A stretch of 64,000 bases of DNA from a virus, in IMG/VR virus record IMGVR_UViG_3300032236_001082, positions 1 through 64,000 of that record; one strand, 5' to 3'. Positions 5,830 through 61,215 of this stretch are shown piece by piece (the stretch's first letter is position 1; each line of letters opens with the position of its first letter). The translations under genes and the position numbers were made by a program. The notes beneath the pieces are model-generated. The model was not told the origin of the DNA and did no database searches. It saw only the letters and a program-made list of their open reading frames with translations.

Positions 5830-6675
5830 TTATTCCTTCATGTCAGCAAAAAATGTAGAAGCTAATTCATAGCCTTTTAGTCCAGACTCCTGCATAATCT
5901 TTACAGCTTCTGGTGTAAACTGAGGGTTTGGCTTTAAGGGCTCTAGCCACTTTTTAACAGCAGCTTCAGACTTATCTCCAATTTGCTCATAGTACTCTGG
6001 GGTTTTATAATTATAAAAAGTGCCAGGATTGTCAATCGCTTTTAATGAAAAATTAGAAAACGCATATCTAATTCCAGAAGTAATTTCTCTTACTCCATGT
6101 GAATATGGATCAAATGCTGAATGGATTACAACGTCGCCTTTTTCTGGTTTATATTCAAAACACTCTTTATTATTTATTAACTGCCAAGCATCTTTTATTG
6201 TTCCATCTGGATTAACGTCTGGGTAAAATATTGCCCCGCCCTCATAATCTCCAAAATAAGCAACGACTCCATAATCTAATTCGCAGCAGGTCTTATAAGT
6301 ATCTGTTTGCGAAAGCAAATGGCATGCGCCCTTGCCTGGGCTATCTGAGTGAACAAACATGCCATTATCTCCAGGCTTAGTTTTTAAAATAGAAGCGGAA
6401 GGGTGAATAACCCAATCTGGCCCAATTAAATCGCCGATCTGTTCCCATACATCAATTAACTTTGGAGGAAGACCTGTTCCTTTACCCTCATACCAATCAA
6501 TTAAATTTAAAGGAGATTCTAAAATCTCTTCTTGCTCTGCGTTTAAAAAATCTTCTACAGATTTTATTAAATCTTCGCTTATAAACTTTTTAAATATAAA
6601 TATACCACTTTTTGTTCCGTAAGCATCAGTAAACGGAGATGGATTTATACAATCGGGTCTGTCGTAAAATTTCAT
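5830..6675 (-). CDS. 2OG-Fe(II) oxygenase, prolyl-4-hydroxylase-like
   Basis: 281 residues. The iron triad is H109-x-D111 (FVHSDS) and H193 (YSHGVRE), and R203 (SGIRYAFSNF) is positioned to bind the 2OG carboxylate. The YEGGAIFYP strand between them is the hallmark of the P4H branch. The enzyme would use O2 and 2OG to hydroxylate a peptide, most likely proline. It is the last gene of a run of oxygenases and is transcribed toward the portal. Closest functional partner by context is the PPG-repeat fibre at 13.5-14.7 kb. Confidence 0.88.
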   Translation of the reverse strand: MKFYDRPDCINPSPFTDAYGTKSGIFIFKKFISEDLIKSVEDFLNAEQEEILESPLNLIDWYEGKGTGLPPKLIDVWEQIGDLIGPDWVIHPSASILKTKPGDNGMFVHSDSPGKGACHLLSQTDTYKTCCELDYGVVAYFGDYEGGAIFYPDVNPDGTIKDAWQLINNKECFEYKPEKGDVVIHSAFDPYSHGVREITSGIRYAFSNFSLKAIDNPGTFYNYKTPEYYEQIGDKSEAAVKKWLEPLKPNPQFTPEAVKIMQESGLKGYELASTFFADMKE

Positions 6676-6693
6676 AATTCCTCCAAAATCTAA

Positions 6694-7341
6694 TTATATC
6701 ATATTAATAGAATTGGTTGAAGTATATCTAACCCCACTCAATATTGGCTTTACCTGATGAACAAATGAAGCTGGAAACATTATTAAGCTACCAGCTTTAG
6801 GTTTTATTGTTATATTATGATCTGGGAAGTACAGCTCTCCACCTTCATAATTTTCATTTAAATAAGTTACAGTAGTAAAAGCTAGATTTGAATGCTCATA
6901 GCTGCTATCGGAATGTGGTCCCATGTAAGAGTTTGCATTCCATTTTCTGACTGGCAGATAAGAAACATCAAGTTGATACTTTGCTGGATCTAACGACGTA
7001 TGCTGATTGATATATTGGTTATAACACATTTCAGCTGCCATTTTTAATGTATTAACAGTGTACAAAACTTTTTGATTTAGCTTTGGACTGTTGCTTTTAT
7101 TTTTTACAGTTTCTGAAAGAATCATTTTTGAGTAACCGTAAAGAACTGATGGGTTGTTGCTTGCAGTCCATTCTTGCCATTTTGGAATATTAGTATGAGA
7201 GTCTGGGTCCGTGTCCAAATTTTCTATTAATTTAATTAAATCTTCTGGATAGCTAATAACATTATCCCAATACCAGATATCGTCATTTAAAACTTCAAGA
7301 TCAAACATTACATACTGCTTTTTAAACTTTACGTCTTCCAT
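6694..7341 (-). CDS. 2OG-Fe(II) oxygenase, P4H-like
   Basis: 215 residues, the size of a minimal P4H catalytic domain. Visible residues: H143-x-D145 (GPHSDSSY), YEGGELYFP, H195 (FVHQVKP) and R205 (SGVRYTST). The N-terminal 120 residues are a helical cap. It is separated by one base from the next oxygenase gene, so the pair is translationally coupled. Low identity to its neighbours outside the motifs suggests old duplications or separate acquisitions, and thus different target peptides. Confidence 0.88.
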   Translation of the reverse strand: MEDVKFKKQYVMFDLEVLNDDIWYWDNVISYPEDLIKLIENLDTDPDSHTNIPKWQEWTASNNPSVLYGYSKMILSETVKNKSNSPKLNQKVLYTVNTLKMAAEMCYNQYINQHTSLDPAKYQLDVSYLPVRKWNANSYMGPHSDSSYEHSNLAFTTVTYLNENYEGGELYFPDHNITIKPKAGSLIMFPASFVHQVKPILSGVRYTSTNSINMI

Positions 7342-7342
7342 C

Positions 7343-8086
7343 TTATCCCTCTACTTCTTGTGCTGGGTACTGATAGCCCGTAGGAGCCAATCTAAGACCC
7401 TTTTCTCTAATGTCTTCCCATTCTACCGCCTGCTCTGCTTGCATGGCTCTAACCTCTGCTAGCTCCTTTGCCCAGGCATCCCTGGTTTCTTGTGGGTAGT
7501 CTGACTCTTCACGATCATCAAAAAATGAACCTATGGTATATCTAGTTGATTTTTTAACTATGTCTACCTTGTGCATATTAGAATGACCTCCATGGAATGT
7601 TGCAAGCATTCCAGTTTCTGGGAGAATTGTTAAATTATGTTGTGGGAAAACTAATTCCCCTCCCTCAAAATCATCATTTAGATATAAGAATGTTGCGTAG
7701 CGACTTCTTGTAAATGCTCCCATGACTCCATCATTTGAACTATTGTCTGAATGTTCTGGGGCAAATGCTCCTGGCAACCAACGCTGGGTATGAAAACTAA
7801 TTCTAGATAACTGAGGTTCAGGTATCCCAGCATTTTCAGCAGTAGCAACTCTAAACCTTTGATAAAGATCTGAAAACCAATTATTAGGCAAGCCAAATTC
7901 TGCTAGTATTGGATCGTTATCTTCTGGATACCCAGATGAATAAGATTCGTAAAAAGAAATTGGTTTCCAAAAATTTCCTCTTATTTCATCTAATTTATTT
8001 AACAGATCTATAGTTTTTTTAGCTTCTTCTTTTGTAATAAAGTTTTTATAAATAGTTAAATCTGTTAATAACTTTTCTTTTTCCAT
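7343..8086 (-). CDS. 2OG-Fe(II) oxygenase, P4H-like
   Basis: 247 residues. Iron ligands H112 and D114 (PEHSDNSS) and H172 (NMHKVDI); R182 (KSTRYTIGSF) for 2OG. YLNDDFEGGELVFPQH is a textbook P4H core strand pair. The C-terminal 60 residues are extra, charged and helical. Its start overlaps the stop of the upstream oxygenase by one base. Confidence 0.88.
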   Translation of the reverse strand: MEKEKLLTDLTIYKNFITKEEAKKTIDLLNKLDEIRGNFWKPISFYESYSSGYPEDNDPILAEFGLPNNWFSDLYQRFRVATAENAGIPEPQLSRISFHTQRWLPGAFAPEHSDNSSNDGVMGAFTRSRYATFLYLNDDFEGGELVFPQHNLTILPETGMLATFHGGHSNMHKVDIVKKSTRYTIGSFFDDREESDYPQETRDAWAKELAEVRAMQAEQAVEWEDIREKGLRLAPTGYQYPAQEVEG

Positions 8087-8922
8087 TACATGGCTCCTGC
8101 ATCTTGAGGATAAGCTTCTTCATAACTTACTGGTTTTCCATCTTTAAAATAAATCATAGTTCTTTTATTATCAAATTCAATTCTTTCATTTTCCATCTTA
8201 GCCCACTTATAAGCTCCGTATTTACGTTGATTTGCAATCCATTCAGGAGATCCTTCGTAAGAATGCATAACAAAGTTTCTAACAAAGAATTTGTTTCCAG
8301 TAGGAATTGTTTTAACACCATGATAGAAGGGTTCTCCAGAAGGAAATACCATTAGGTCTCCCGCTTTTGGTTTATGGTTTGTAACATCTCCGTTAACCCA
8401 AAACTCAACATCTCCTCCATCATAATTATCATTAATATAAAAAGTACAAGTAGTGTGGAATTTAGGACCTGGCATATCTTTTTCAGACACAATAAAATCT
8501 GTATGGTACTGCATTGTCATCTTGTTCTTTAAAACATCAACATCATTAAAGTATTTACAGTAAGAATGTCCACTAAAATAAGCATCTTCTGGCAATGTTC
8601 TTTCTATGCTAATATTATTAAAATAATGAGAAATAGCTTTATCATAAGCAGTTCTGATTTCTTCATCTAAATCTTTTTCATCTTTAAATTGCTGCTCTAG
8701 TACATTAGTTAAAGAATTTCCGTCTTTAGGTTGTGAGTAGGTTCCAAATGCTGACCAAGGGGTCCAAGCAGAAAGATAATAATCTCCAGATGCAAGCTCT
8801 TCTGATTTACGCATAGTCTCATAGGCTTTTGTTGGATCTTTAAGCATATTTCTATAGCATATCACTCCTGGGTATATCTCATCCCACTCTAAATCATTTA
8901 CATCTGTTCTTAAGTTAATCAT
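8086..8922 (-). CDS. 2OG-Fe(II) oxygenase, P4H-like with Lys 2OG anchor
   Basis: 278 residues. Iron ligands H140 and D142 (QYHTDFIV) and H201 (FYHGVKT). The 2OG-anchoring position is K211 (TGNKFFVRNF) rather than Arg, as in collagen-type prolyl-4-hydroxylases. YINDNYDGGDVEFW replaces the usual EGGEL strand. It resembles the larger oxygenase at 42.9-43.9 kb (shared VRNF/IRQF ending and similar N-terminal layout), so those two are probably paralogues. Confidence 0.87.
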   Translation of the reverse strand: MINLRTDVNDLEWDEIYPGVICYRNMLKDPTKAYETMRKSEELASGDYYLSAWTPWSAFGTYSQPKDGNSLTNVLEQQFKDEKDLDEEIRTAYDKAISHYFNNISIERTLPEDAYFSGHSYCKYFNDVDVLKNKMTMQYHTDFIVSEKDMPGPKFHTTCTFYINDNYDGGDVEFWVNGDVTNHKPKAGDLMVFPSGEPFYHGVKTIPTGNKFFVRNFVMHSYEGSPEWIANQRKYGAYKWAKMENERIEFDNKRTMIYFKDGKPVSYEEAYPQDAGAM

Positions 8923-8924
8923 AT

Positions 8925-9671
8925 TTACTCCTGCTCCTTATTAAATAATTGCTTGTACTCTTCAGATTCAAACCCGCCACGATAACCTGGAGGTGGCTGC
9001 TTTTCTCCAGTATGCTTTTTGATATTCCAAAAAAACGGAGAAGTGAATCTATTACCAGATTTTACTGGGCGGACTCCGTGTGTATAAAATCTATCTCCTG
9101 GAAAAAAGTAAGCTGATCTTGGTGTTGGTTTAAATTCAAGTCCATGCTGAGGGAAGTATAGCTCTCCGCCTTCGTAATCATCATTAAAATAAAAAAGGCT
9201 GGCTATGTCATAGTATGGGAAATCATTAGGTCTACCCTGCTCTGCTCCGATATGAAATTCTTTATCAGCATGTGGTTCTTGTCTTGCTCCTACAGGCCAT
9301 TTTACAATTGCTGGTCCTGTTGCTTCTACCTCTACTTCAAAAAACTTTTCTACTTCTATTTTTAATCTATCTATCATTCCATAAATTAATTTAAGTATTG
9401 AAGGGTCTGACTTCATGAGAGAATCATAAGTACAAACACGATCATCCCAGATACTTGCCTGATACAAAACCAATCCATCTTCGTCGTAGCTGTCCTGGGT
9501 TACATCCCAGACTTTGTTATTCAAAGCAAAATTCATAAGCCTTTGCTGCTCTTCTTCTGTTAAAAAGTCTTCTAGCTCAACTATGTTTGCGGACGAGTTG
9601 CCAAAAAATCCAGAAGGAGTTATTGAAGTGGGTCTATTTTGCACCCAACTATTAGAATTTGTTTGATTCAT
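8925..9671 (-). CDS. 2OG-Fe(II) oxygenase, P4H-like
   Basis: 248 residues. H134-x-D136 (EPHADKEF), DDYEGGELYFPQHGLEF, H198 (YTHGVRP) and R208 (SGNRFTSPFF) form the active site. The segment WPVGARQEPHADKE resembles bacterial and viral P4Hs acting on Pro-rich peptides. The N-terminus overlaps the end of the upstream DUF6065-like gene by 20 bases, showing tight coupling inside the cassette. Confidence 0.88.
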   Translation of the reverse strand: MNQTNSNSWVQNRPTSITPSGFFGNSSANIVELEDFLTEEEQQRLMNFALNNKVWDVTQDSYDEDGLVLYQASIWDDRVCTYDSLMKSDPSILKLIYGMIDRLKIEVEKFFEVEVEATGPAIVKWPVGARQEPHADKEFHIGAEQGRPNDFPYYDIASLFYFNDDYEGGELYFPQHGLEFKPTPRSAYFFPGDRFYTHGVRPVKSGNRFTSPFFWNIKKHTGEKQPPPGYRGGFESEEYKQLFNKEQE

Positions 9672-10362
9672 TTTGTTTTCTTTCTATTGTAAAAGACAGG
9701 CTATCTGCTTCATGTTTGCCTATTTTATTGCCTAAATGATCTAAAGCATTTTTATACCAATGCGTCAATCTTTTATTAATTCTACCATACTCAAACATAG
9801 CATCAATATAATTAGAATCGTGGACTCTATCTATACTCTCATCTGACAGTATTATTTTAGCATTATTTAAATTAGAAACGGATATTGGCAAAACAGAAGC
9901 AATTGGGGTGCCTGCTGGGATTTTAATTATTTTGCCTGGGCTAGTTACTCTCCAAACAACATGAAGGTTGCCAGTATAAAATGATGAAGACAATATAGTT
10001 GTAAAGCATTGGGCACCATCTATAAATTGATTGGGTACTGGCATTACTAAAAGACTAGAGTCTGGGCTTGTTTTAAATACTAAATTAGTAACAAATCCAA
10101 TCACTCCACCGCCTCGACCAAAAAAACAATAATCTTTTCCCTCAAGTACCTCAATATCTCCATCTTCTCCTTGTGCAGAACTACCGTTCCAAACAAATGA
10201 AATGTCTTGATCAAAAGATATTCCATAACCAAGTTTATTAGTTAAAGTTACTGGCGGGCAATGATAGCCATCTTTATTTTGGTTCATCCAATCACGACTA
10301 ACTTCTAAAGGAAAGATATTAGTTTTTAATCCATTAATTTCATAAACATTTACAGTATTCAT
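9652..10362 (-). CDS. DUF6065-like protein, paralogue A
   Basis: 236 residues, probably all-beta. It shares with the next gene the blocks LTNKLGYGISFDQDISFVW, MPVPNQFIDG, SSFYTGNLHVVW and the C-terminal YKNALDHLGNKIGKH. I tentatively assign it to DUF6065, a family of unknown function; the name is from memory. Its place between P4H genes suggests a job on the same substrate, for example binding the modified protein or acting as a non-metal beta-sandwich enzyme. No catalytic residues can be named. Confidence 0.7.
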   Translation of the reverse strand: MNTVNVYEINGLKTNIFPLEVSRDWMNQNKDGYHCPPVTLTNKLGYGISFDQDISFVWNGSSAQGEDGDIEVLEGKDYCFFGRGGGVIGFVTNLVFKTSPDSSLLVMPVPNQFIDGAQCFTTILSSSFYTGNLHVVWRVTSPGKIIKIPAGTPIASVLPISVSNLNNAKIILSDESIDRVHDSNYIDAMFEYGRINKRLTHWYKNALDHLGNKIGKHEADSLSFTIERKQNESNKF

Positions 10363-11051
10363 TTAACATCCAAGTCAAACTTTTTAACCTGATGGTAACC
10401 TAATTTTTGACCTAAATGATTTGTTGCATTGCGATACCAATCAGTCCATTTTCCTTGATTATTGATTTCAGCTCCAATAGCTGAGTAGTCTGAATTATCA
10501 GCATCTGGCATTTTTGCGTTAGAGATATCATCAAATAATATTTCTGAATTGTTTATTTCTGACAAATTTAAAGGAACAATTGCGATTACTGGGGTATTAG
10601 CCTTGATAGTAATTTCAACATTTGGTCGTGTTATTTGCCAAGCCACTGGTAGCTCTTTACTATAAAAAGAAGTTGTCATTAAAATAGAAAATGGAGATAC
10701 TCCATCTCTTGGGTAATTAGGTACTGGCATTTGAAACAAAGTTGTATCTTCATTTGTTCTAAACATTATTCCAGTATTAAAACTAATGGTTGCATTTGCT
10801 CTACCAGGAGATGCGTATTTATGTCCAGATAAAACTTTTACATGGCCTGGGTTGGCATCTGAAATCCCGTCCCAAATAAAAGTAATATCTTCTGGGAAAG
10901 AAATTCCCCAACCCATCTGATTAGTTAGGCTTACTGGAAAACAATGGTAGGCATGGGCATTTTGAGTATTATCCATCCATTCTCTTTTTACAGAAAGTGG
11001 TGACAAATTAGCACAAATCTCGCTAACCTTATATGCCTTAACCAAACTCAT
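10359..11051 (-). CDS. DUF6065-like protein, paralogue B
   Basis: 230 residues and clearly related to paralogue A: LTNQMGWGISFPEDITFIW, MPVPNYPRDG, TSFYSKELPVAWQ and YRNATNHLGQKLGYH align end to end. The start of paralogue A overlaps the stop of this gene by four bases. The pair looks like a tandem duplication that has diverged well beyond recent copying, so both are probably under selection. Function unknown. Confidence 0.7.
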   Translation of the reverse strand: MSLVKAYKVSEICANLSPLSVKREWMDNTQNAHAYHCFPVSLTNQMGWGISFPEDITFIWDGISDANPGHVKVLSGHKYASPGRANATISFNTGIMFRTNEDTTLFQMPVPNYPRDGVSPFSILMTTSFYSKELPVAWQITRPNVEITIKANTPVIAIVPLNLSEINNSEILFDDISNAKMPDADNSDYSAIGAEINNQGKWTDWYRNATNHLGQKLGYHQVKKFDLDVK

Positions 11052-11732
11052 CTACTTACCTTGCTCAACCCATCTTTGTCTCATCTGCATGAATTCATCA
11101 TTATGAGCATGGTCATTATAATCAAGCATTGTTACAATAGAATACTTTTGACCACTTTGGACTGGCTCAGCTACGTGAGAAAATAAATATGTTGAAGGGA
11201 ATATATAAAGATCTCCCGCTTGTGGTTTTATCTTTAGATCAAGCTTAGGGAAAGTTAGTTCCCCGCCTTCATAATCATCATTTGGATAACCAACTAAAGA
11301 AACAGTTGCACTGTAAGAAAATCCGTGGTCAGCATGCTCTTTAAAATGTTGGCCTGGGCCATACTTGATGCAATTCATGACTTCCCAATAATCCATTTTT
11401 ACAGAATACCTATTGCAGTAGTCTAAAGCTGGACCAGATTGAATATACTTTAAGTCTCTCCATAGATTAAGAACTTCTACCTGAGTATTATTAACTGGGT
11501 TTAAAACTTCATTAATTTTAATATCTTTGCAGTCTCTATAGCCTTGATTTACTGTTGAGTATCCAACAGAAGCTTCTTGCCAAAAATATCTAGCGTCATG
11601 CTCTTGTTGAGCTAATCTGCCAATGTTTTCTAGTCTATTTAAGATGTTTAATTCTTTCTTAAATACATTTCGATATACCCAAATCCCATGAAACAAATGT
11701 TCTTGAGATGTCCAAGTAGGTTGATTATTCAT
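11052..11732 (-). CDS. 2OG-Fe(II) oxygenase, P4H-like with Lys 2OG anchor
   Basis: 226 residues. H133-x-D135 (KEHADHGFSY), DDYEGGELTFPKLDLKIKP, H186 (FSHVAEP) and K196 (SGQKYSIVTM). The Lys at the 2OG-binding position is as in animal collagen P4H. It abuts the DUF6065-like pair and lies just downstream of the glycosyltransferase in transcription order. Confidence 0.88.
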   Translation of the reverse strand: MNNQPTWTSQEHLFHGIWVYRNVFKKELNILNRLENIGRLAQQEHDARYFWQEASVGYSTVNQGYRDCKDIKINEVLNPVNNTQVEVLNLWRDLKYIQSGPALDYCNRYSVKMDYWEVMNCIKYGPGQHFKEHADHGFSYSATVSLVGYPNDDYEGGELTFPKLDLKIKPQAGDLYIFPSTYLFSHVAEPVQSGQKYSIVTMLDYNDHAHNDEFMQMRQRWVEQGK

Positions 11733-11782
11733 TTTCTCTTTCCTATCTATTATTTACAAATTATATCAATTAAAAATTTAAT

Positions 11783-12790
11783 TTAAAAGGTTACAATTCT
11801 TGGAGGTTCAAATCTAATATCATAAGCGTGTCTATAACCAATCTCTGCATCCATCTTGTCAAAGTTAGGCATATATTCACACCATTTTTTATTAAGACCA
11901 CTAAAATCACAATAAGCCAAAACTTTTTCAAGAGGAATTCCGCCACGGCCAGATAACAAATCATTTAATTTTAACATTGTTTCATCAGACTGTTTCCAAA
12001 AAGCTTCTTTATGCTGATCTGTCCATGGTCTTCTTGTTGCAGACAACATTTCAAAATTATTTTCTGGGTATTCTTTTCTTGTATCGTGTAAATACAAAAT
12101 TTTAGGTGTTGCAAACATTCTCCAACCAGAACACCAAGTCTTTACAGTAATATAAATTTCTTCAGCTTGATAGTTGATATCATCTTCAAAAGGCAACTCA
12201 TCAAAATAAGCTCTTTCACCAAAAACATAACTAGCTTGAAAATAAACAGCTTCATGAACATCTCCATCATTAGGGACTGGGACAATATCTGGCCAACCAT
12301 GTCCTGGGATATATCTATCTGCATCCAACTTTTGATGGTAAAGACTCATGGTTCTTCCAGTAGAAACATCTTCCACCTTTAAAGATCCATCTTGGTTAAA
12401 TTCAAACTCTGGTCCACAAAAAGCTAATATAGCTTTCCCGTCAGAAGTTTTAGCTTTTGCTTTGTCTAACTCTATAAAAGATTCAGCATCCCAATTTTTT
12501 GTAAACAAATTGTGTCCACAAGTTACAAGAACATGGTCATATTCAAAATCATTTTCCATAGTCCTTGCTCTTGACCACAAAACTCCTCTAAATTCGGACA
12601 AATCGTACTTCTTGTAAAGTAATTGATTTTCTGGAATAAAGCTTAAATCAGCATGAAGATCATCAGAATATTGTTCTGAGACTATAGAGAAAAATAGATT
12701 CTCTGGATTCTTAGCATTTTCATAACAGCTTCTTACAGATTCAGCAAGCTTTTTTTCTCTATACGCAACCATAGAAACTAATATTTTCAT
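11783..12790 (-). CDS. Glycosyltransferase of the Skp1-HyPro GlcNAc-transferase type (PF11397-like)
   Basis: 335 residues. The start ILVSMVAYREKKLAESV with NAKNPENLFFSIVSEQ matches the beginning of the GlcNAc (PF11397) family, whose founding member adds GlcNAc to hydroxyproline of Skp1 in Dictyostelium after a P4H has acted. Later blocks also fit: GVLWSRARTM, GHNLFTKNWD, FQASYVFGERAYFDELPF and YQAEEIYITVKTWCSGW. The family's usual Asp-Ser-His metal motif reads Cys-Gly-His here (VTCGHNLF), an odd change. It lies between two P4H genes, immediately beside the PPG-repeat fibre operon. Predicted to glycosylate hydroxylated peptide; donor sugar unknown. Confidence 0.8.
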   Translation of the reverse strand: MKILVSMVAYREKKLAESVRSCYENAKNPENLFFSIVSEQYSDDLHADLSFIPENQLLYKKYDLSEFRGVLWSRARTMENDFEYDHVLVTCGHNLFTKNWDAESFIELDKAKAKTSDGKAILAFCGPEFEFNQDGSLKVEDVSTGRTMSLYHQKLDADRYIPGHGWPDIVPVPNDGDVHEAVYFQASYVFGERAYFDELPFEDDINYQAEEIYITVKTWCSGWRMFATPKILYLHDTRKEYPENNFEMLSATRRPWTDQHKEAFWKQSDETMLKLNDLLSGRGGIPLEKVLAYCDFSGLNKKWCEYMPNFDKMDAEIGYRHAYDIRFEPPRIVTF

Positions 12791-12791
12791 T

Positions 12792-13514
12792 TTATTTATT
12801 TAACCTTTTCATAATAACAGCTTCGGTATCATACGAGCTGTGACAGTCACACATTTGATCTTTTGGGACTTCTGGTTTAGATATTGTACCAGTTTTTAAA
12901 TAATAACGAACATCCCCGTCTAAAGCATATTTCTTAAAATTATCTTCTATTTCTTTTTCATTTTTAGATTGAGCAAACCAATGGTCTGGGGTAACAAAAT
13001 GCAAGAATAATAAAGTAATATAAGAATCTTCATCATCTACAGGATATTCTGGTCTACCATGTACTTGCTGTTGACCATAAAATACTATAGCTGAATTTTC
13101 TTCTTCAGTATAAGTTTGACCATCAACAATCAATCCCCACTCTAAATTATTTTTTTCTATACAAACATCTATAGTTATTTGACAGGCATATTGATCCATA
13201 TGGGGCCACAAATTTGGAACTACCCCGTCTTTTTTTTGATATCTTGAAATAAAGTAATAAGCTTTTTGGATATCATCCCTGCCTACTATTTGTTTTGCTT
13301 TATTTAAAATAACTTGTTCCGTATCTGCATCAAACTCTATACCAGATTCCCATCTTCCTAAAGTAGTATGATATTTATGATTTTGATCTACACCTAATCC
13401 AATGGACAATACTTTATTTTTAATTAAACTAAATGTACCAAGATCAAACAAGCCATCAATTTTTGATGGCCTGTTTGGTTCTGACAATTTAAATCTTATT
13501 GGATCTAAATTCAT
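12792..13514 (-). CDS. Divergent 2OG-Fe(II) oxygenase paired with PPG-repeat fibre
   Basis: 240 residues. H105-M-D107 (NLWPHMDQYACQITIDV) and H152 (QQVHGRPEYP) are the likely iron ligands; the EGGEL strand is absent, so this is a more distant member, closer to short cyanophage-type 2OG oxygenases. The 2OG anchor is less certain (R154 or the YITLLFLHF strand). Its ATG overlaps the stop codon of the PPG-repeat fibre gene by one base, the strongest genetic link between an oxygenase and a possible substrate in the window. Confidence 0.8.
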   Translation of the reverse strand: MNLDPIRFKLSEPNRPSKIDGLFDLGTFSLIKNKVLSIGLGVDQNHKYHTTLGRWESGIEFDADTEQVILNKAKQIVGRDDIQKAYYFISRYQKKDGVVPNLWPHMDQYACQITIDVCIEKNNLEWGLIVDGQTYTEEENSAIVFYGQQQVHGRPEYPVDDEDSYITLLFLHFVTPDHWFAQSKNEKEIEDNFKKYALDGDVRYYLKTGTISKPEVPKDQMCDCHSSYDTEAVIMKRLNK

Positions 13515-14680
13515 TAATCTTGATTCTTGTCTGTAAGTTCCTCTTCAACAGCTTTTTTAATTGTTGCGCTGCCTGGTACTGGGAACACTTTGAACCCTGG
13601 TGGCGAGAAGAAGCCTGGAGGGCTGAAGAACCCTGGAGGGCTGAAGAACCCTGGAGGGCTGAAGAACCCTGGTGGCGAGAAGAAGCCTGGAGGGCTGAAG
13701 AACCCTGGAGGGCTGAAGAACCCTGGAGGGGCAAAGAACCCTGGTGGCGAGAAGAAGCCTGGAGGGCTGAAGAACCCTGGTGGGGCAAAGAAGCTTGGTG
13801 GTTGAGATGTAGCAGTGTTAGATGCTGCAGAGTAGTTACCAGTTCCATTTTGGTTAACTGCTGATATTTGATAAGTATTTGAGTTACCAGCAGTTTCTGC
13901 AAATGTGTAAGGGCTTGATGTTACTCCAGGAACTACTGTTCCTAAATTATCTTTGATATTATATGAAGTAATTGCATATCCACCATTTGCTGGAGCCGAG
14001 AATGTAACAATTTCTGAGTTTGTTCCATTAGAAGCAGTTGGTGCTGATGGTGTGTCTGGAACTGTTGTAGCGGTAATTGAATTAGATGCAGTTGAAGCTG
14101 CAGAGGTTCCATTTGCATTTGTAGCTGTCATTGTAAATGTATAGCTGGTTGCAGAGGCTAATCCAGTAACTGTGATTGGAGATGATGTTCCTGTTCCAGT
14201 TTGAGAACCGCTTGAAGTTACTGTATAACCAGTAATTGCAGATCCACCTGTTGCTCCCGCTGTAAACGGTACAGTAGCTGCTCCGTTATTAAAGGCACGG
14301 TTTAAACCAACATCGGATACTGAACCTACTACTGGGGCTTGTGGGACTGTAGTTGCTGTAATTGACCCTGATGTTGTTGATGGTCCTGAACCATATGAAT
14401 TTGAGGGGACAACTGTAAATGTATAAGAAGTTGCAGAAGCTAAACCAGTAAACTGGTAAGATGTTGATGATGTTGTTTGTGTTGTAGTTGCTGGTGTAGA
14501 AGTTATTGTATATAGTGTTGCTGCTATAGAGTTGCTTGGCAATGACCAAGATAAATTAGCTGCTCCGTTATTATAAGCTCTTCCTGTTCCTACGTCTGAT
14601 GCCGTTAATCCTGTTACTGCCAACGGCGCAACATGTTGATCTTGACCATCTGCTGAAAATCTACCTGCTTGTTTTGACAT
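13514..14680 (-). CDS. Tail protein: three fibronectin-III modules plus PPGFFS repeats
   Basis: 388 residues. Residues about 20-290 hold three FN3-like modules, each with the LASATSYTF signature (two clear, one degenerate) joined by SITATTVP linkers. Residues 294-364 are twelve 6-residue units, PPGFFS with A or S at the sixth position, the first being PPSFFA and the last PPGFK. The tail KKAVEEELTDKNQD is charged. Every unit holds Pro-Pro-Gly, the sequence in which collagen prolyl-4-hydroxylase modifies the second Pro. FN3 modules are common on phage tail surfaces and bind carbohydrates. It heads the oxygenase cassette and follows the fibre genes. Confidence 0.85.
   Translation of the reverse strand: MSKQAGRFSADGQDQHVAPLAVTGLTASDVGTGRAYNNGAANLSWSLPSNSIAATLYTITSTPATTTQTTSSTSYQFTGLASATSYTFTVVPSNSYGSGPSTTSGSITATTVPQAPVVGSVSDVGLNRAFNNGAATVPFTAGATGGSAITGYTVTSSGSQTGTGTSSPITVTGLASATSYTFTMTATNANGTSAASTASNSITATTVPDTPSAPTASNGTNSEIVTFSAPANGGYAITSYNIKDNLGTVVPGVTSSPYTFAETAGNSNTYQISAVNQNGTGNYSAASNTATSQPPSFFAPPGFFSPPGFFSPPGFFAPPGFFSPPGFFSPPGFFSPPGFFSPPGFFSPPGFFSPPGFFSPPGFKVFPVPGSATIKKAVEEELTDKNQD
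13589..13801 (-). repeat. Tandem 18-bp repeat encoding PPGFF(S/A), 12 units
   Basis: About twelve contiguous 18-bp units, read on the plus strand as variants of CCTGGAGGGCTGAAGAAC. The third, wobble and serine/alanine positions vary in blocks (GGTGGCGAGAAGAAG and GGAGGGGCAAAGAAC variants recur), showing unit-level duplication. The tract is much more GC-rich than its surroundings. Such arrays change length by slippage or recombination. Confidence 0.95.
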
Positions 14681-28083: not shown

Positions 28084-28701
28084 ATGCAGCCTAAAATTAT
28101 TGAAAACTTTATAAATAAAGAAACTTGCAATTACATCATGTCTTATATGGCAAAACCTTATACGCTTGATGAAAAGGGTAAACGTATAATTCACGTAAAT
28201 GAAGAAAGTGGAGAAAATGCTGTATGTATGGGTTGGTATCCAGAGATTGAAACTTTTTTAAAAACTTTAAAAAAAGAAAATCTTCAGAATTCTTTAATTT
28301 ACGATTTATTTAATTTAATTGGTCAAAATATGTGTAGCGTTTTTGATTTTAAACAATCAGAAGTAATATACGAAACTTCTCATTATAAATATTTTGGCTC
28401 AGAGCAAATTGGCGATAGCTTTGGTTCAGAAAAAGACGGAGAAAATGGTCAGCTTCCTCACACGGATCAATATGGTATGGATGGACAAATCTATACAGCA
28501 GTATTATATTTAAATGATGAATATGTGGGCGGAGATGTAATTTTTTACGAAAATAACGATGAGTCAAAGCCAACAAGATATAGAATGAAAGCTGGTTCAT
28601 TAATGTATTTTAGTGGTCTTGACTTGCATGCGGTAGAAAATGTGACTGCTGGTAAAAGAGCGTCATTTGTTTTGCATATTAGAGTTAAAGAGAAAAATTA
28701 A
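28084..28701 (+). CDS. 2OG-Fe(II) oxygenase, P4H-like
   Basis: 205 residues with a ribosome site AAAAGGAGA and a TATAAT box upstream at about 28052. Iron ligands H126 and D128 (LPHTDQYG) and H182 (DLHAVEN); R192 (GKRASFVLHI) for 2OG; NDEYVGGDVIFY is the core strand. The N-terminus MQPKIIENFINKETCNYI closely resembles that of the oxygenase at 43.9-44.5 kb, so the two are paralogues on opposite strands, away from the main cassette. Confidence 0.87.
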   Translation: MQPKIIENFINKETCNYIMSYMAKPYTLDEKGKRIIHVNEESGENAVCMGWYPEIETFLKTLKKENLQNSLIYDLFNLIGQNMCSVFDFKQSEVIYETSHYKYFGSEQIGDSFGSEKDGENGQLPHTDQYGMDGQIYTAVLYLNDEYVGGDVIFYENNDESKPTRYRMKAGSLMYFSGLDLHAVENVTAGKRASFVLHIRVKEKN

Positions 28702-41145: not shown

Positions 41146-42210
41146 ATGACTGTAATTATACCGTTTGGTGCCAACTGCGTACCTGCTAACATATTAAAAA
41201 ATCAGAAGAATCTGAGGAATGCTCATCTACCCTTTGACTGGGTATTTGCCTATCCAGAGTATATTAAGAAAGCTTTAGATACAGACTTTGATGGTTGGTT
41301 GGACCCACAGTATATGACTCGTATAGATGATAATGCTGCAGGATATAGTACCAAACATTCCCTCTACCCGCTTAAACCTGAAAATGAACAGGGTGGACTA
41401 TCTGGTTTCTTTGAGCACTTTGATATGACTGACCCAGATAACCGTGAGAAATATGCCAGAGCAATAACTAGATTTAAGAATCTAATCCAGTCAGATGAGC
41501 ACTTGGTATTCTTCACAACAATAGATTATGAGACCCTACAGCAGTATGGGTTGGTTGATTATTTTAATAGAAACAATACGGAATTCTTGATTTTAAAGCA
41601 TATAGAATCAAATGATAATGTCATTGGATTTGAAGATAGAGGTACCCATTGTGTTATATATCAGCATACACCTAGTTGGAATGAAGAATGGGAATGGATC
41701 AGAAATATAATCAGAGATAGATATAACCTGAAGCCAGGAACATTGTTTCACTTTGTAGATGCTTGTATTAATAATAATTTAGAATACGCTGTGTATCGCA
41801 ACTGGCATCAGCCAACTCCTACTTGGGCAGAGTTTGAGAACTTATACAACACAGTTAGACAGTCTGGTCGTATATCAATTAAAGGATTAGATATAACACC
41901 AGAGATGGAATTCTTTAAAAAGGCTGCAATTGAAGTTTATCCAGAAATAGAGTATGAGTTGTTTGCTATGGAAGCTGAGTCATTTCGTAATTTAGATCCC
42001 GCCAATTCTGGTACCTATCAGCATACAGACCCGCATGATGTAATTCACTGGCAGTGCCGTGGTGCTTCGGAGTGGTTTATGGGAGAAGAGATGCAATCAT
42101 TTATATTAGAACCAGGAGATTTGATCTGGTTTAAGGCAGGAACAAAGCATAAAATTGAAAATATAACAGAAAAATATGCACTGATATTTAATTGTGGATT
42201 GCTGCCTTAA
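41146..42210 (+). CDS. DUF1796 papain-like domain fused to JmjC-type 2OG oxygenase
   Basis: 354 residues. Residues 3-60 (PFGANCVPANILKNQKNLRN, HLPFDWVFAYPEYI) match DUF1796, a putative cysteine-peptidase family with the Cys in GANC. Residues about 285-350 fit the JmjC/ribosomal-oxygenase cupin: HTDPHDVIHWQCRGASEW with H-x-D, then EPGDLIWFKAGTKHKIEN with the distal His. Such oxygenases hydroxylate His or Arg in proteins. The fusion is unusual. It has no ribosome site and sits alone on the plus strand between minus-strand genes. Confidence 0.75.
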   Translation: MTVIIPFGANCVPANILKNQKNLRNAHLPFDWVFAYPEYIKKALDTDFDGWLDPQYMTRIDDNAAGYSTKHSLYPLKPENEQGGLSGFFEHFDMTDPDNREKYARAITRFKNLIQSDEHLVFFTTIDYETLQQYGLVDYFNRNNTEFLILKHIESNDNVIGFEDRGTHCVIYQHTPSWNEEWEWIRNIIRDRYNLKPGTLFHFVDACINNNLEYAVYRNWHQPTPTWAEFENLYNTVRQSGRISIKGLDITPEMEFFKKAAIEVYPEIEYELFAMEAESFRNLDPANSGTYQHTDPHDVIHWQCRGASEWFMGEEMQSFILEPGDLIWFKAGTKHKIENITEKYALIFNCGLLP

Positions 42211-42686: not shown

Positions 42687-42931
42687 TACCAAACCTCATC
42701 AACATTAAACTCAGGCTTAGGATTATCCCTTTCGTACATAATACCTTTAAGGTATACGCAAAGGTCCAAAGCTTCCTCGTAAGCGTCCTGTAGCATGTCT
42801 CTGCCGTTGTATGCCTGCAAGCCAGTGCCATACCGCTCTATGCCCAATTCAAGGCGTTTTGCCATATCTTCTATGACCATCTTCTGCAAGATCGGATTGC
42901 CGTTTATAGTTGGAATTGGTTGCTCTGTCAT
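42686..42931 (-). CDS. MazG-like nucleotide pyrophosphohydrolase fragment-type protein
   Basis: 81 residues. RLELGIERYGTGLQAYNGRD and DAYEEALDLCVYLKG match the small MazG-like proteins of actinophages, with acidic residues placed to bind Mg-nucleotide. Such enzymes remove pyrophosphate from dNTPs or alarmones. It is shorter than full MazG. The ribosome start overlaps the upstream oxygenase by four bases. Confidence 0.7.
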   Translation of the reverse strand: MTEQPIPTINGNPILQKMVIEDMAKRLELGIERYGTGLQAYNGRDMLQDAYEEALDLCVYLKGIMYERDNPKPEFNVDEVW

Positions 42932-43890
42932 ATATTTAATTCTTTTCTAGTCTTGATTACGCAAGCAATTTGTGACTCTACCACCTGTGAGTATTTTGGT
43001 GAATCTAAGTCAATTGAATCTAATGAATCAAATATAACTGGCATAACCCTATCTAGTGAATACTTTTTACGGTCTTCATCTAATGCCTTTTGGAAATCTT
43101 CTGGACTTAAAGCTTCCATCTTTTCGTAATATTCTTTTGGATGTGGGGCAGATAAGAACTGTCTGATATAGAACTTAGACTTATCTCCTGATAGTTTTCC
43201 TACGCCATGGTAGTAATCTGTGGGGAAGATCATTCCGTCTCCCGCCTCCATCTTGTATGAGAAGTAATCCTCAATTAGCCAAGCTTCTTTTTCTTTTCCA
43301 GAATAAGTGTCAATGTACTTTGCCTTCTCAACGCCTTCGTGAGTAAAGAATATAATCTCTCCACCCTCGTAATCATCATTTACATAAATATTAAAGTTGA
43401 ATATGTGGCTAGAACCGCCCCACCAATGCATTACATCTTGGTGAATCTTCATCTGATAGTCTGAATCAGCATTTAAAGATGTTTCAAATATAGGCATATC
43501 TGCCATGCTGTGGGTGAAATTACCAGCAGCCAATCTTGCTTCTAATTCTTCAAGGCTAGTAGGAAAGTCTGAACTCCAGTTGTATTTATCAAAATAGCTT
43601 TGATCCAAGAACTTATTTTTATATACCTTTAGAACGTTAAAGAATATATCCAAACACTCTTTTTGCAAATCCGCTCCCGCAGAATCACTGTCTTTATAAG
43701 ACTTATCCTCATTTGGATACATCTTTGAATAATTACCCCAAGGCAACCATGTAGTCCAAGTATCTTTATTTGCATATGGATCATCTCCAGTTTTTGAATC
43801 TAGGATGAATTGATATGTTTTCTGGGGGTCCTTGAGTACATTCTTAAACAGTACTACTCCATGACCTAAATCTATTGGGTTAAGTTCCAT
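42928..43890 (-). CDS. Large 2OG-Fe(II) oxygenase, P4H-like
   Basis: 320 residues. H150-x-D152 (KIHQDVMHWW), NDDYEGGEIIFF, H228 (DYYHGVGK) and K239 (KSKFYIRQFL). A 25-residue insert (VEKAKYIDTYSGKEKEAW) lies between the core strands. N-terminus LGHGVVLFKNVLKDPQKTY parallels the 8.1-8.9 kb enzyme (PGVICYRNMLKDPTKAY), so these are paralogues about 34 kb apart. Confidence 0.88.
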   Translation of the reverse strand: MELNPIDLGHGVVLFKNVLKDPQKTYQFILDSKTGDDPYANKDTWTTWLPWGNYSKMYPNEDKSYKDSDSAGADLQKECLDIFFNVLKVYKNKFLDQSYFDKYNWSSDFPTSLEELEARLAAGNFTHSMADMPIFETSLNADSDYQMKIHQDVMHWWGGSSHIFNFNIYVNDDYEGGEIIFFTHEGVEKAKYIDTYSGKEKEAWLIEDYFSYKMEAGDGMIFPTDYYHGVGKLSGDKSKFYIRQFLSAPHPKEYYEKMEALSPEDFQKALDEDRKKYSLDRVMPVIFDSLDSIDLDSPKYSQVVESQIACVIKTRKELNI

Positions 43891-43932
43891 GTCTTGCCTT
43901 TCGGTTATACAACAATTATATCATTAATTTAA

Positions 43933-44475
43933 TTACTGGGTTACTGCATAAAACAATATTAAATTAGCACGTTCGCCATAGATAACGTCTTTAACTTCAT
44001 GGGGATGATTTTCGTCTCCCTTAAAATAAATTAAAGTTCCCTTTGTAGGCTTATATGCTGTTCCGCTTTCGGGTGTGCCAGAGTTATCATCATAAAACCA
44101 GATCTCCCCGCCTTCGTAATCATCTGTAAGGTAAAGCAAAGCCGAGTAGTAGGCATCTGTGTAGCCATCAACACCACCGTATGCATCGGTATGCCAACCA
44201 AGCCCCTCACCCTTTTGCAGCACTTGATAAAGCACTCTATCTAATTTGATAGAAGCTTTTGGGAATCCAAATTGATTTGAAATAGAATCAATAGTTAAAT
44301 TAATTAAATCATGCACCACCTTGCTGTCAAGCCCTGGATTGGAGTTTAAGTGTAATGGGTTTAAAGGTACATTTAAAACGCCTCTTGGGTTTATTTCTGC
44401 TTTAGGTCTTAAGTAATTGTTTATATACTCTGCTGTTTCTTGATTTATAAAATCATCAACTATTGTTGGTTGCAT
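43933..44475 (-). CDS. Compact 2OG-Fe(II) oxygenase, P4H-like
   Basis: 180 residues, near the minimum for the fold. H95-x-D97 (GWHTDAYGG), TDDYEGGEIWFYDD, H159 (NHPHEVKD) and R169 (GERANLILFY). MQPTIVDDFINQETAEYI at the start aligns with the 28.1 kb oxygenase. It neighbours the ThyX region rather than virion genes, so its target could be a host protein. Confidence 0.88.
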   Translation of the reverse strand: MQPTIVDDFINQETAEYINNYLRPKAEINPRGVLNVPLNPLHLNSNPGLDSKVVHDLINLTIDSISNQFGFPKASIKLDRVLYQVLQKGEGLGWHTDAYGGVDGYTDAYYSALLYLTDDYEGGEIWFYDDNSGTPESGTAYKPTKGTLIYFKGDENHPHEVKDVIYGERANLILFYAVTQ

Positions 44476-55939: not shown

Positions 55940-56773
55940 TTATATCATATTATTAATGTCTGGCTTGGTTAAAGTGGCCCAGACACCATTAAAATATCTT
56001 TCTTCTGGCTTAAATCCGCCAGTTATAGTGTGTACAAGTTTAAATAAATCGGGAATTAAGATGTCTCCCTGTTGCCATTTATGCACTATTCTAATGTCTT
56101 CATTGTTCTTCACTTGATCGTTTAAGAACATCATAATTCTATTAAATTCTTTTTCCATTGGATCGGAAGGCTCAAAACCATTATATCTTGCTAAATATTT
56201 GTACTTAGAGGGATCAGCATTGAAATCAACGTGAGCCATCAATTCGCCCGTTCTATAATGTTTAGAAGCGCAATTTGCCAATATGACATCATCAAAATAA
56301 TAAAAATAGGTTTGGGAGTCTGTAATTATCTGTTGCTCTTGAGGATTTAAAAGATTCCATAATTTGTGGGCATCTACAAAGTAAGTTTTACCGCTGTCTG
56401 GACTACAAGTAAATGTCTTCATGTTCCAAATAGCACCAGCAGTTCTATTCTTTCTATAGAAATGCTCTAGGTGCCAAGTGATTACAATATCGTCATTTCC
56501 CCACTTTTCGTTATAAGCGTGTTTGTGGTTTTCTGAATAAAAAGCATAAGCATTAAATGCTTCAAGATTTTCTGGGTCATCAAAAGACTTAGTATTAGGA
56601 AACCAGCCAGCTTTATCTCCAAATATTTTAAGTATTTCTACTTGTTCTTCTTTTGAAACATCCCCACCTCTAAAACAGATGACAGAATTTTCCTCAAATT
56701 TATCAAAATAATATTGAAGGTTATCTTTAATTCCTTCTATACCTGGATACTGTGTAATATATGGACTTAGCAT
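55940..56773 (-). CDS. TauD/TfdA-like 2OG dioxygenase
   Basis: 277 residues. H101-x-E103 (ITWHLEHFY) uses Glu in place of the usual Asp; H248 (LVHTITGG) and R259 (EERYFNGVW) complete the iron and 2OG sites, and FTCSPDSGKTYFVDA is the typical strand before the lid. This branch usually acts on small molecules rather than peptides, so it is separate in function from the P4H cassette. Confidence 0.8.
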   Translation of the reverse strand: MLSPYITQYPGIEGIKDNLQYYFDKFEENSVICFRGGDVSKEEQVEILKIFGDKAGWFPNTKSFDDPENLEAFNAYAFYSENHKHAYNEKWGNDDIVITWHLEHFYRKNRTAGAIWNMKTFTCSPDSGKTYFVDAHKLWNLLNPQEQQIITDSQTYFYYFDDVILANCASKHYRTGELMAHVDFNADPSKYKYLARYNGFEPSDPMEKEFNRIMMFLNDQVKNNEDIRIVHKWQQGDILIPDLFKLVHTITGGFKPEERYFNGVWATLTKPDINNMI

Positions 56774-59749: not shown

Positions 59750-60328
59750 CTATATCGTTGTATTGTTGGAAGATCGGTTTCCGTACCCCGCAGATGACTG
59801 TCCATCATTTTCATATGTCGCTCTTGACGGGAAATAATATCTTGCATCTTGCATTGTGGAATTAAATTCTGGTCCCATTTGACCTTTATTGGATGGAACA
59901 AAAACTCCATCCCAAATTGATTTTTTGATAGGAATGCAATTAGGAACTGTTTTGCCATCTTGTTCTTTTGTACCAGCATATTGATATCCTTCCCAACATG
60001 GTCCTTTACCTTTTGTAACACAATATGCACACTTTTCCGTATCAGAAATATAATGATGATCATTTCCTAAATCATCGCATCCGCATGTCATGCATTTATT
60101 AACCACGTTATTCTCCTTATACTCCTCTGGGGTTTTAGTAGTCCTAACTTCATCGCTAAGTAGGTCTATTTTGGGGTTATCTAGGCCTTTAAGGGCCTCT
60201 TCTGCCTCTTCCTTAGTAAGGTAACAACCTATTGATTGTCCCGTCCCAGACTTTAAAATAGAGTATCCGTGTTGACAATCTGGCGTACCAAACTCTATTG
60301 ACCAGCCATCTCCACCTGTAAATATCAT
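59750..60328 (-). CDS. Cys-rich virion-associated protein
   Basis: 192 residues. N-terminus: GWSIEFGTPDCQHGYSILKS resembles a small domain with a helix (KEEAEEALKGL). Middle: CMTCGCDDLGNDHHYIS with CAYCVTKGKGPCWEGYQ, a zinc ribbon. C-terminal KKSIWDGVFVPSNKG matches the end of the 52.1-52.9 kb protein. Starts exactly after the fibre gene. Confidence 0.65.
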   Translation of the reverse strand: MIFTGGDGWSIEFGTPDCQHGYSILKSGTGQSIGCYLTKEEAEEALKGLDNPKIDLLSDEVRTTKTPEEYKENNVVNKCMTCGCDDLGNDHHYISDTEKCAYCVTKGKGPCWEGYQYAGTKEQDGKTVPNCIPIKKSIWDGVFVPSNKGQMGPEFNSTMQDARYYFPSRATYENDGQSSAGYGNRSSNNTTI

Positions 60329-61215
60329 TACCAGTTGTCTCCTGCATGATAATCAATTTTTTTCCAAATTGGTGTTGAATTGTTTACATAATCTTTTATA
60401 CATACATATAAGAAGGAAGAATCATGTGCGATCATACCCTCAACATCTCCAGATACTCCATAAGAATGTGCGGGAACAGAAGATTTTACAATAACAGATT
60501 TAATATCGCTATTGTAAGAAATTTCACCCGTTGAAGTATTATAAGATAATGGCTTTATGCCTGAAGATTGTGGTTTATAGCCTATACCATTTATATAAGT
60601 TTTACCACCATCTTGGTAGATACCATTAGATCCCCCACCAAAATAAATCTTACCTATGCCAGACTCTTCAACTAAACGCAAAACTACATTATCGTTTCCA
60701 TCATGCAATTCAATATTGTTTGCAATAATTGCGGGAAGCTGGGCTTGTGCAATACCATCAATAAAGAATACACCGTTATCAATAGTTAAAGCAACTTGCT
60801 GATTTGTTGTAGCGTCCGTAATATAGATAGTACCTTCACCGATTGAAATAGATTTCCATCTGTGTGTATCATTTCCAAGAGTGTAAGCATTGTCTGAGGC
60901 TGGGATCAGGTCTGTACCTATTACAGTTTTACCAGATCCATCTGTACCAATATTTTGTGCCATTCCCGTTCCAAAAGAAATATACCCTTTTGAAGAATCT
61001 TCAAAACCTCTTATTGAAAGTGTATTTGCAAGGTTAACATCACCAAGCCAAACATCATCACCAATTTTAACATTGGTTCCATTGCCGTTATTTGTTACAT
61101 ATAACTTATCATATGTATCTGTGGGGGTTCCATTTCCTGCTGGACCTTGTGCTCCAGTGTCACCTTTAGGCCCTGGGGCTCCTGTTCCTGGGGTGCTTAT
61201 ATGAATTCTAGACAT
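60328..61215 (-). CDS. Collagen-like tail fibre
   Basis: 295 residues. Residues 12-27 are Gly-X-Y triplets (GAPGPKGDTGAQGPAG), with Pro in X or Y. Then a fibre body: YLTNNGNGTNVKIGDDVWLG-like strands, IPASDNAYTLGNDTHRWKS (a common fibre adaptor motif) and a C-terminal HSYGVSGDVEGMIAHDS knob with a CIKDYVNN end. Collagen-like parts of phage fibres often form the trimer neck. The short GAP triplet is a possible P4H site. Confidence 0.85.
   Translation of the reverse strand: MSRIHISTPGTGAPGPKGDTGAQGPAGNGTPTDTYDKLYVTNNGNGTNVKIGDDVWLGDVNLANTLSIRGFEDSSKGYISFGTGMAQNIGTDGSGKTVIGTDLIPASDNAYTLGNDTHRWKSISIGEGTIYITDATTNQQVALTIDNGVFFIDGIAQAQLPAIIANNIELHDGNDNVVLRLVEESGIGKIYFGGGSNGIYQDGGKTYINGIGYKPQSSGIKPLSYNTSTGEISYNSDIKSVIVKSSVPAHSYGVSGDVEGMIAHDSSFLYVCIKDYVNNSTPIWKKIDYHAGDNW

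Follow-up and report, generated by a model that had tools for sequence, protein, structure and literature searches.

Protein chemistry of the hydroxylated kind, with or without added sugars, has been described mainly for collagen, the cell walls of plants and Skp1. The closest described systems are the collagen prolyl 4-hydroxylases (P4Hs), together with the virus-encoded vCPH of PBCV-1 (PDB 5c5t); the Skp1 pathway, where a P4H is followed by an N-acetylglucosamine (GlcNAc) transferase of family PF11397; and the extensin-type arrays of plants and algae, proline-rich surface repeats that carry hydroxyproline and are served by P4Hs and glycosyltransferases. Here we compare with them a phage locus at positions 5830-14680 of the window, the stretch of 64,000 nucleotides that opens the 112,158-bp IMG/VR record IMGVR_UViG_3300032236_001082. 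In this locus, genes for a P4H-type 2-oxoglutarate (2OG) Fe(II) oxygenase, further oxygenases, two DUF6065 proteins and a glycosyltransferase lie directly behind a virion-type protein that ends in an array of PPxFF repeats. We read the region as a virion-protein tailoring module in which the array of the phage's own surface protein would be the substrate of the enzymes, and put the probability of this joint reading at about two in three. It would represent a new and widespread phage module, made of a virion-type repeat array and matched modifying enzymes, with proline hydroxylation as the likeliest core reaction, and to our knowledge it would be the first known protein-hydroxylation system of bacteriophage virions.

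As with collagen P4H and vCPH, which are also its sequence and fold neighbours, a 2OG/Fe(II) enzyme of P4H type, virus-encoded like vCPH, has a proline-rich repeat as its presumed substrate. Here, however, the enzyme gene keeps a constant place after one virion gene, together with DUF6065 and several oxygenases, and the repeat is PPxFF instead of Gly-X-Y, with glycine at most every sixth position as against every third in collagen. The initial annotation had invoked the collagen rule that proline is hydroxylated before glycine in X-Pro-Gly. Among about 1,320 units, with the consensus [AGS]PPxFF, glycine follows the proline pair in only 690, about half, the others having S, A, L, V, R, T or N, so that this part of the proposal is not supported in that form and the collagen analogy is weak; at the sixth position about 96% of units have A, S or G. 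Like the Skp1 pathway, the locus has a P4H-type oxygenase adjoining a PF11397-family glycosyltransferase, but here PF11397 is present in few loci, no later sugar enzymes were seen, and the proposed substrate is an array of repeats where Skp1 offers one proline. The listed window open reading frames (ORFs), in which no dedicated search for it was made, showed no Skp1-like protein, and the comparison is one of how the systems work. With extensin-type arrays the locus shares proline-rich repeats on a surface protein, P4H and glycosyltransferases, and Cr-P4H (3gze) is a fold neighbour of its core oxygenase; the repeat sequence, the organism and all accessory genes differ, and the likeness comes without an evolutionary link shown.

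Among phages, the virions of mycobacteriophages are reported to be glycosylated (Freeman 2023, as cited in PMC12619734), likewise a phage-encoded modification of virion proteins. In the system proposed here, unlike theirs, hydroxylation would be constant while the transferases vary. We know of no oxygenases or PPxFF arrays that form part of the mycobacteriophage systems. Cyanophage 2OG-Fe(II) oxygenases (PHROG 61/81) belong to the same superfamily and also occur in several copies per phage, but other functions have been proposed for them (PMC3037559), and DUF6065 is absent from all isolate records. The literature search, which left most subscription journals outside, gave none in which structural proteins of phages are hydroxylated and none on DUF6065; papers matching PPGFF were non-phage by title and abstract.

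Linkage of arrays and enzymes

The proposed substrate (13514-14680, minus strand) is a 388-residue protein with an fn3 domain (match at 2.1e-16) and a C-terminal array at 13586-13801, whose DNA has a period of 18/36/72 bp. Twelve PPGFFS units had been annotated; the twelve hexads are there, but only ten are PPGFF[SA], the others being PPSFFA and PPGFKV. The label of tail protein is suggested by a weak match to a minor tail protein PHROG and by the position of the gene near those for portal, prohead protease and major capsid protein, which follow the cassette.

PPxFF genes occur in at least 100 IMG/VR contigs, and their carriers, which we put in the hundreds, are uncultured freshwater phages. 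Scans of IMG/VR gave at least 119 stretches for PPGFFxPPGFF, a few of them from one contig, and at least 562 for relatives of DUF6065. For 62 PPxFF genes the sequence extends at least 3.5 kb downstream; within this distance a same-strand 2OG gene follows in 57, and 2OG and DUF6065 together in 55, while a 2OG gene lies upstream in only 1 of 45. Five PPxFF genes thus lack a 2OG gene; one of these, the second PPGFF gene of the window genome, is an artefact of start-codon calling, because its 2OG gene overlaps the array gene. Starting from DUF6065, a PPxFF gene is found within 4 kb upstream in 40 of the 41 loci that have this much upstream sequence, and a flanking 2OG gene in 75/75, in a sample that favours near relatives since the DUF6065 query was taken from PPGFF loci. 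The recurrence of the cassette gene order in many other contigs, together with the 13 PF13640 matches in the whole record, indicates that the locus is more than a product of chance.

The arrays stand behind the fn3 anchor or behind a short PASTA-looking segment, which has no Pfam match. Of 16 large contigs that bear the cassette, 12 have the capsid family of the window, and the four without it (L032, L038, L081, L085 in our numbering) use the PASTA-looking anchor. In the first three, 2OG and DUF6065 genes still lie behind the array on this different N-terminus, whereas L085 has none at the fetched locus and 2OG genes elsewhere on the contig. These records may be fragments, so that a missing capsid gene is no more than suggestive; a T4-type capsid profile (PF07068) gave no match in this second lineage, which is uninformative.

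In our view the strongest argument for array-enzyme pairing comes from phages that carry different arrays on the same fn3 anchor. We used the anchor alone as query, without array or enzymes, which points to at least 572 contigs, and counted, from all loci gathered, each distinct anchor protein whose gene had 2.5 kb or more of sequence behind it, the arrays being classed by regular expression as proline-pair (PPxFF, FFPPFFP, HFPP) or FG-type (TPFGAFGF, SVFGFF and similar). Proline-pair arrays are followed by 2OG genes in 128/128 cases and by DUF6065 in 110/128; for FG-type arrays the figures are 3/22 and 0/22. Behind 15 of the 22 FG-type arrays lies another family instead, here called HKFFER, with an HxH..H..R pattern, which is not exclusive to them (a copy is present in 12 of the 128 proline-pair loci), and other genes found there are sulfotransferase-like, Asp/Asn-hydroxylase, GNAT-like and distantly DUF6065-like. 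In a set made non-redundant at 85%, 2OG genes accompany 90/90 proline-pair and 3/24 FG-type arrays. On a tree of 114 anchors we count 13 changes of array type, and in six independent contrasts on well-supported branches the 2OG gene changes in the same direction as the array in a mean of 5.7, and in the opposite direction in none (p ~0.03), figures that come from a quick tree of related loci gathered partly through PPGFF or DUF6065. Because enzyme content switches with array type on a common anchor, the enzymes would belong to the array and not to the anchor or the site.

The HKFFER family (L255, L261, L264, L292, L293, L256, L307), with up to four copies per cassette, has no Pfam match and no useful PDB match, and one of two members matches a PHROG of unknown function. 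It is possibly a new oxygenase family, as its histidine pattern suggests, although no database match supports this. Further arrays on the fn3 anchor, NFYNYSNFYN and FTPYAFTPYSF (L349 with two anchor genes, L363, L336), have no 2OG gene within 2.5 kb downstream.

Enzymes of the cassette

Ten consecutive minus-strand ORFs (5830-13514) lie nearly end to end with the array gene, as initially annotated, and the overlap of one base also stands: at 13514, in TAATG, the stop and start codons of the array gene and its neighbour share a base. In the order of transcription, the array gene is followed by a divergent 2OG-oxygenase-like gene (12792-13514), the PF11397 glycosyltransferase (11783-12790), the P4H-type oxygenase (11052-11732), two DUF6065 genes (10359-11051 and 9652-10362) and five oxygenases at 8925-9671, 8086-8922, 7343-8086, 6694-7341 and 5830-6675. 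We searched the window ORFs with Pfam profiles at their curated cut-offs, which are 27 bits for PF13640, 21 for PF11397 and 26.6 for PF19541.

The claim of seven 2OG oxygenases with all residues intact stands for six of them, in which the canonical HxD..H..R/K set is complete. The seventh, which adjoins the array gene (12792-13514, phrog_2954), keeps HxD and the distal histidine, lacks R/K at H+10 and has no Pfam match. Five score above the PF13640 cut-off (those starting at 6694, 7343, 8086, 8925 and 11052). At 17.1 bits the diverged 5830-6675 stays below this cut-off, yet it retains a complete HxD/H/R set and is clearly recognised by a profile made from the cassette. About 17 ORFs of the window genome score with the cassette oxygenase profiles.

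The core oxygenase (11052-11732) is the one paired with DUF6065 across relatives, among which H133, D135, H186 and K196 are invariant. Its profile finds prolyl hydroxylases (the best matches being P4Hs), PiuC and LH3 in the PDB. The fold comparison covers this one family: for an AlphaFold model with a predicted local distance difference test (pLDDT) of 88.6, the top 50 PDB matches in Foldseek are all prolyl hydroxylases, vCPH and Cr-P4H among them, with E down to 3.7e-10 and template modelling (TM) scores of 0.44-0.63. The initial assignment as a P4H-type enzyme thus fits both sequence and predicted fold.

Both DUF6065 annotations are borne out by PF19541 (110.3 bits for the protein at 10359, 77.8 for the diverged one at 9652). 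The model (pLDDT 94) predicts a dUTPase-like beta-clip protein (Foldseek E 3.8e-5, probability 1.0, TM 0.34-0.41 by query length), a likeness of the core fold that does not make it a dUTPase; among viral models it comes closest to uncharacterised proteins of phages. Folds of this type are usually trimeric. Because of this, and because DUF6065 tracks proline-pair arrays, our working guess is that it is an array-binding partner or adaptor. A narrow pattern for DUF6065 gave one match in GTDB genomes, on a 5.3-kb contig (JAFMJX010000128.1; L133) in a Chitinophagaceae metagenome-assembled genome, which carries array, 2OG and DUF6065 genes and is probably a mis-binned phage fragment.

The glycosyltransferase assignment is upheld at 58.5 bits (E 1.1e-15); searches of the PDB with PF11397 proteins gave no useful match. 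In related folds, a D-x-H-type motif binds metal. At this position, 10 aligned PF11397 rows, some of them duplicates, have D-[SA]-H (L024, L123, L210-L216, XacN1), as do most phage relatives, while the window copy and L371 have C-G-H and L332 has K-Q-H; the activity of the window enzyme is therefore uncertain. Being present in few loci, it is a rare accessory. In L212-L216 and L123, relatives with D-S-H follow genes for tail proteins that carry long (TP)n repeats (in L213 a 2OG gene intervenes), which independently hints at an association of such transferases with proline-rich repeats. In the locus at G000 88135-93140 (L012:5236-10241), the second PPGFF gene of the window genome encodes 785 residues with eight PPGFF units and PPSFVVYPG motifs. 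Behind it come a 2OG gene, a GT61 glycosyltransferase (89217-90188) and two more oxygenase-like genes, so that the GT61 gene lies between genes of 2OG type. Cassettes of other phages have a Sulfotransfer_2-type family. From these gene contents, glycosylation appears to be a variable extra and not a general part of the system.

Proposed mechanism and alternatives

In the tailoring module as we picture it, the fn3-anchored surface protein would be made and its C-terminal ([AGS]-P-P-x-F-F)n array would serve as substrate for the enzymes whose genes come directly after. The core oxygenase would most likely hydroxylate proline of the PP pairs in the course of infection, either ahead of assembly or while it proceeds, and the other oxygenases would act at further positions of the same array or carry out extended oxidation. 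A variable set of transferases (PF11397 here, GT61 at the second PPGFF gene, sulfotransferase-like enzymes in relatives) may afterwards cap the hydroxyls, with DUF6065, as a best guess, bound to the array. The modification would serve virion surface chemistry, stability or receptor contact. We infer the substrate, the residue, the addition of sugar or sulfate and this role from comparative genomics, and not with equal confidence: that the array is the substrate is quite probable, that proline is the main modified residue is favoured with more reserve, and that the array of the window phage is also glycosylated is doubtful. The initial proposal that the phage modifies its own fibre is thus well supported by the two-way linkage and the joint switch of array and enzymes, except for glycosylation as a general part.

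Several points weigh against this tailoring reading. The loci are not independent and the well-supported contrasts number only six, and arrays and enzymes could be co-inherited because their genes are physically linked, even if neither acts on the other. Glycine after the proline pair is not conserved, the window glycosyltransferase lacks the usual aspartate, and the TM-scores of the core oxygenase establish its superfamily and nearest branch, not its substrate. Neither DUF6065 nor the array protein had a match in 50,697 isolate phage records.

The best surviving alternative, although unlikely, is that the oxygenases modify the array or the anchor mainly at residues other than proline (e.g. 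Phe, Ser, Asn), the P4H likeness being only that to the nearest known enzymes. The HxH..H..R family behind FG-type arrays, which have no proline pair, would fit this, as would the Asp/Asn beta-hydroxylase family found in many cassettes of other phages and the up to 13-15 PF13640 genes per genome, which exceed what one residue type needs. Yet 2OG genes track PP pairs, and the core enzyme has prolyl hydroxylases as its PDB neighbours in both sequence and fold. Slightly less probable again, the cassette may be a cargo (moron) hot spot by the fibre gene, whose oxygenases have host metabolism, nucleic acids or small molecules as their targets. Neither the change of content with array sequence on one anchor, nor the asymmetry of 57/62 downstream against 1/45 upstream, nor the recurrence on another anchor in records without the window capsid family would be expected from such a hot spot, even though the dUTPase-like fold of DUF6065 hints at nucleotides and the common 2OG oxygenases of cyanophages, a further point against our reading, have been given DNA-repair or 2-oxoglutarate/nitrogen functions (PMC3037559). 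It is very improbable that the true substrate is a nearby collagen-like (Gly-X-Y) tail protein, as for viral collagen P4H, with an indirect PPxFF link: a gene for a collagen-like protein with a Peptidase_S74 domain comes after some cassettes, a collagen-like gene lies within 8 kb in 19/30 DUF6065 loci, and vCPH is a fold neighbour, but PPxFF is present in 29/30 of those loci, including 10 without a collagen-like gene, only 5/35 of the PPxFF loci that extend 7.5 kb downstream have such a gene, and the sole collagen-like stretch in the window (60328-61215) is about 46 kb away. With this much weaker association, we rejected collagen-like genes as the substrate.

If the tailoring reading is true, part of the abundant, so far unexplained 2OG oxygenases that aquatic phages carry, which are commonly classed as auxiliary metabolic genes, would gain a substrate and a purpose, DUF6065 would gain a context, and phages would be seen to build hydroxylated, perhaps glycosylated or sulfated, virion arrays. 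As array and enzyme travel as a pair, enzyme-substrate specificity would become predictable from sequence. A broader proposal, on which we are evenly divided, is that phages replace one low-complexity array of the surface by another (PPxFF, FFPPFFP, TPFGAFGF, (TP)n and others) on common anchors, together with the matched enzyme cassette, and so alter virion surface chemistry. The cassettes would comprise P4H-type 2OG with DUF6065, HKFFER, PF11397/GT61 or sulfotransferases, and sometimes a self-processing intein-like domain.

Host and neighbouring features

The host of the window phage is likely actinobacterial, since it encodes a WhiB and a capsid protein that shares about 55% identity with those of Streptomyces phages.

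PPxFF arrays often precede a bacterial intein-like (BIL)/Hint domain, which matches PDB 2lwy (E 2.5e-6). It is about 165-185 residues long and lies directly behind the array in L025:5920-7581, L022, L017 and many others; some copies have Cys1 and a C-terminal HN, and others have Ser or lack these residues. Self-cleavage of the Hint-bearing array protein is possible. GNAT-like and cupin-looking genes lie shortly downstream of the array gene in Hint-bearing loci (L107:4074-4616, L256:6081-6623, L129:3855-4436).

Outside the cassette, the window encodes TauD-like and further 2OG oxygenases at 55940-56773, 28084-28701 and 42928-44475, and a DUF1796 domain fused to a cupin-like C-terminus at 41146-42210. 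A ribonucleotide reductase gene at 23606-25540 matches the class II insertion domain, and a similar-looking gene stands directly after the cassette in several FG-type loci.

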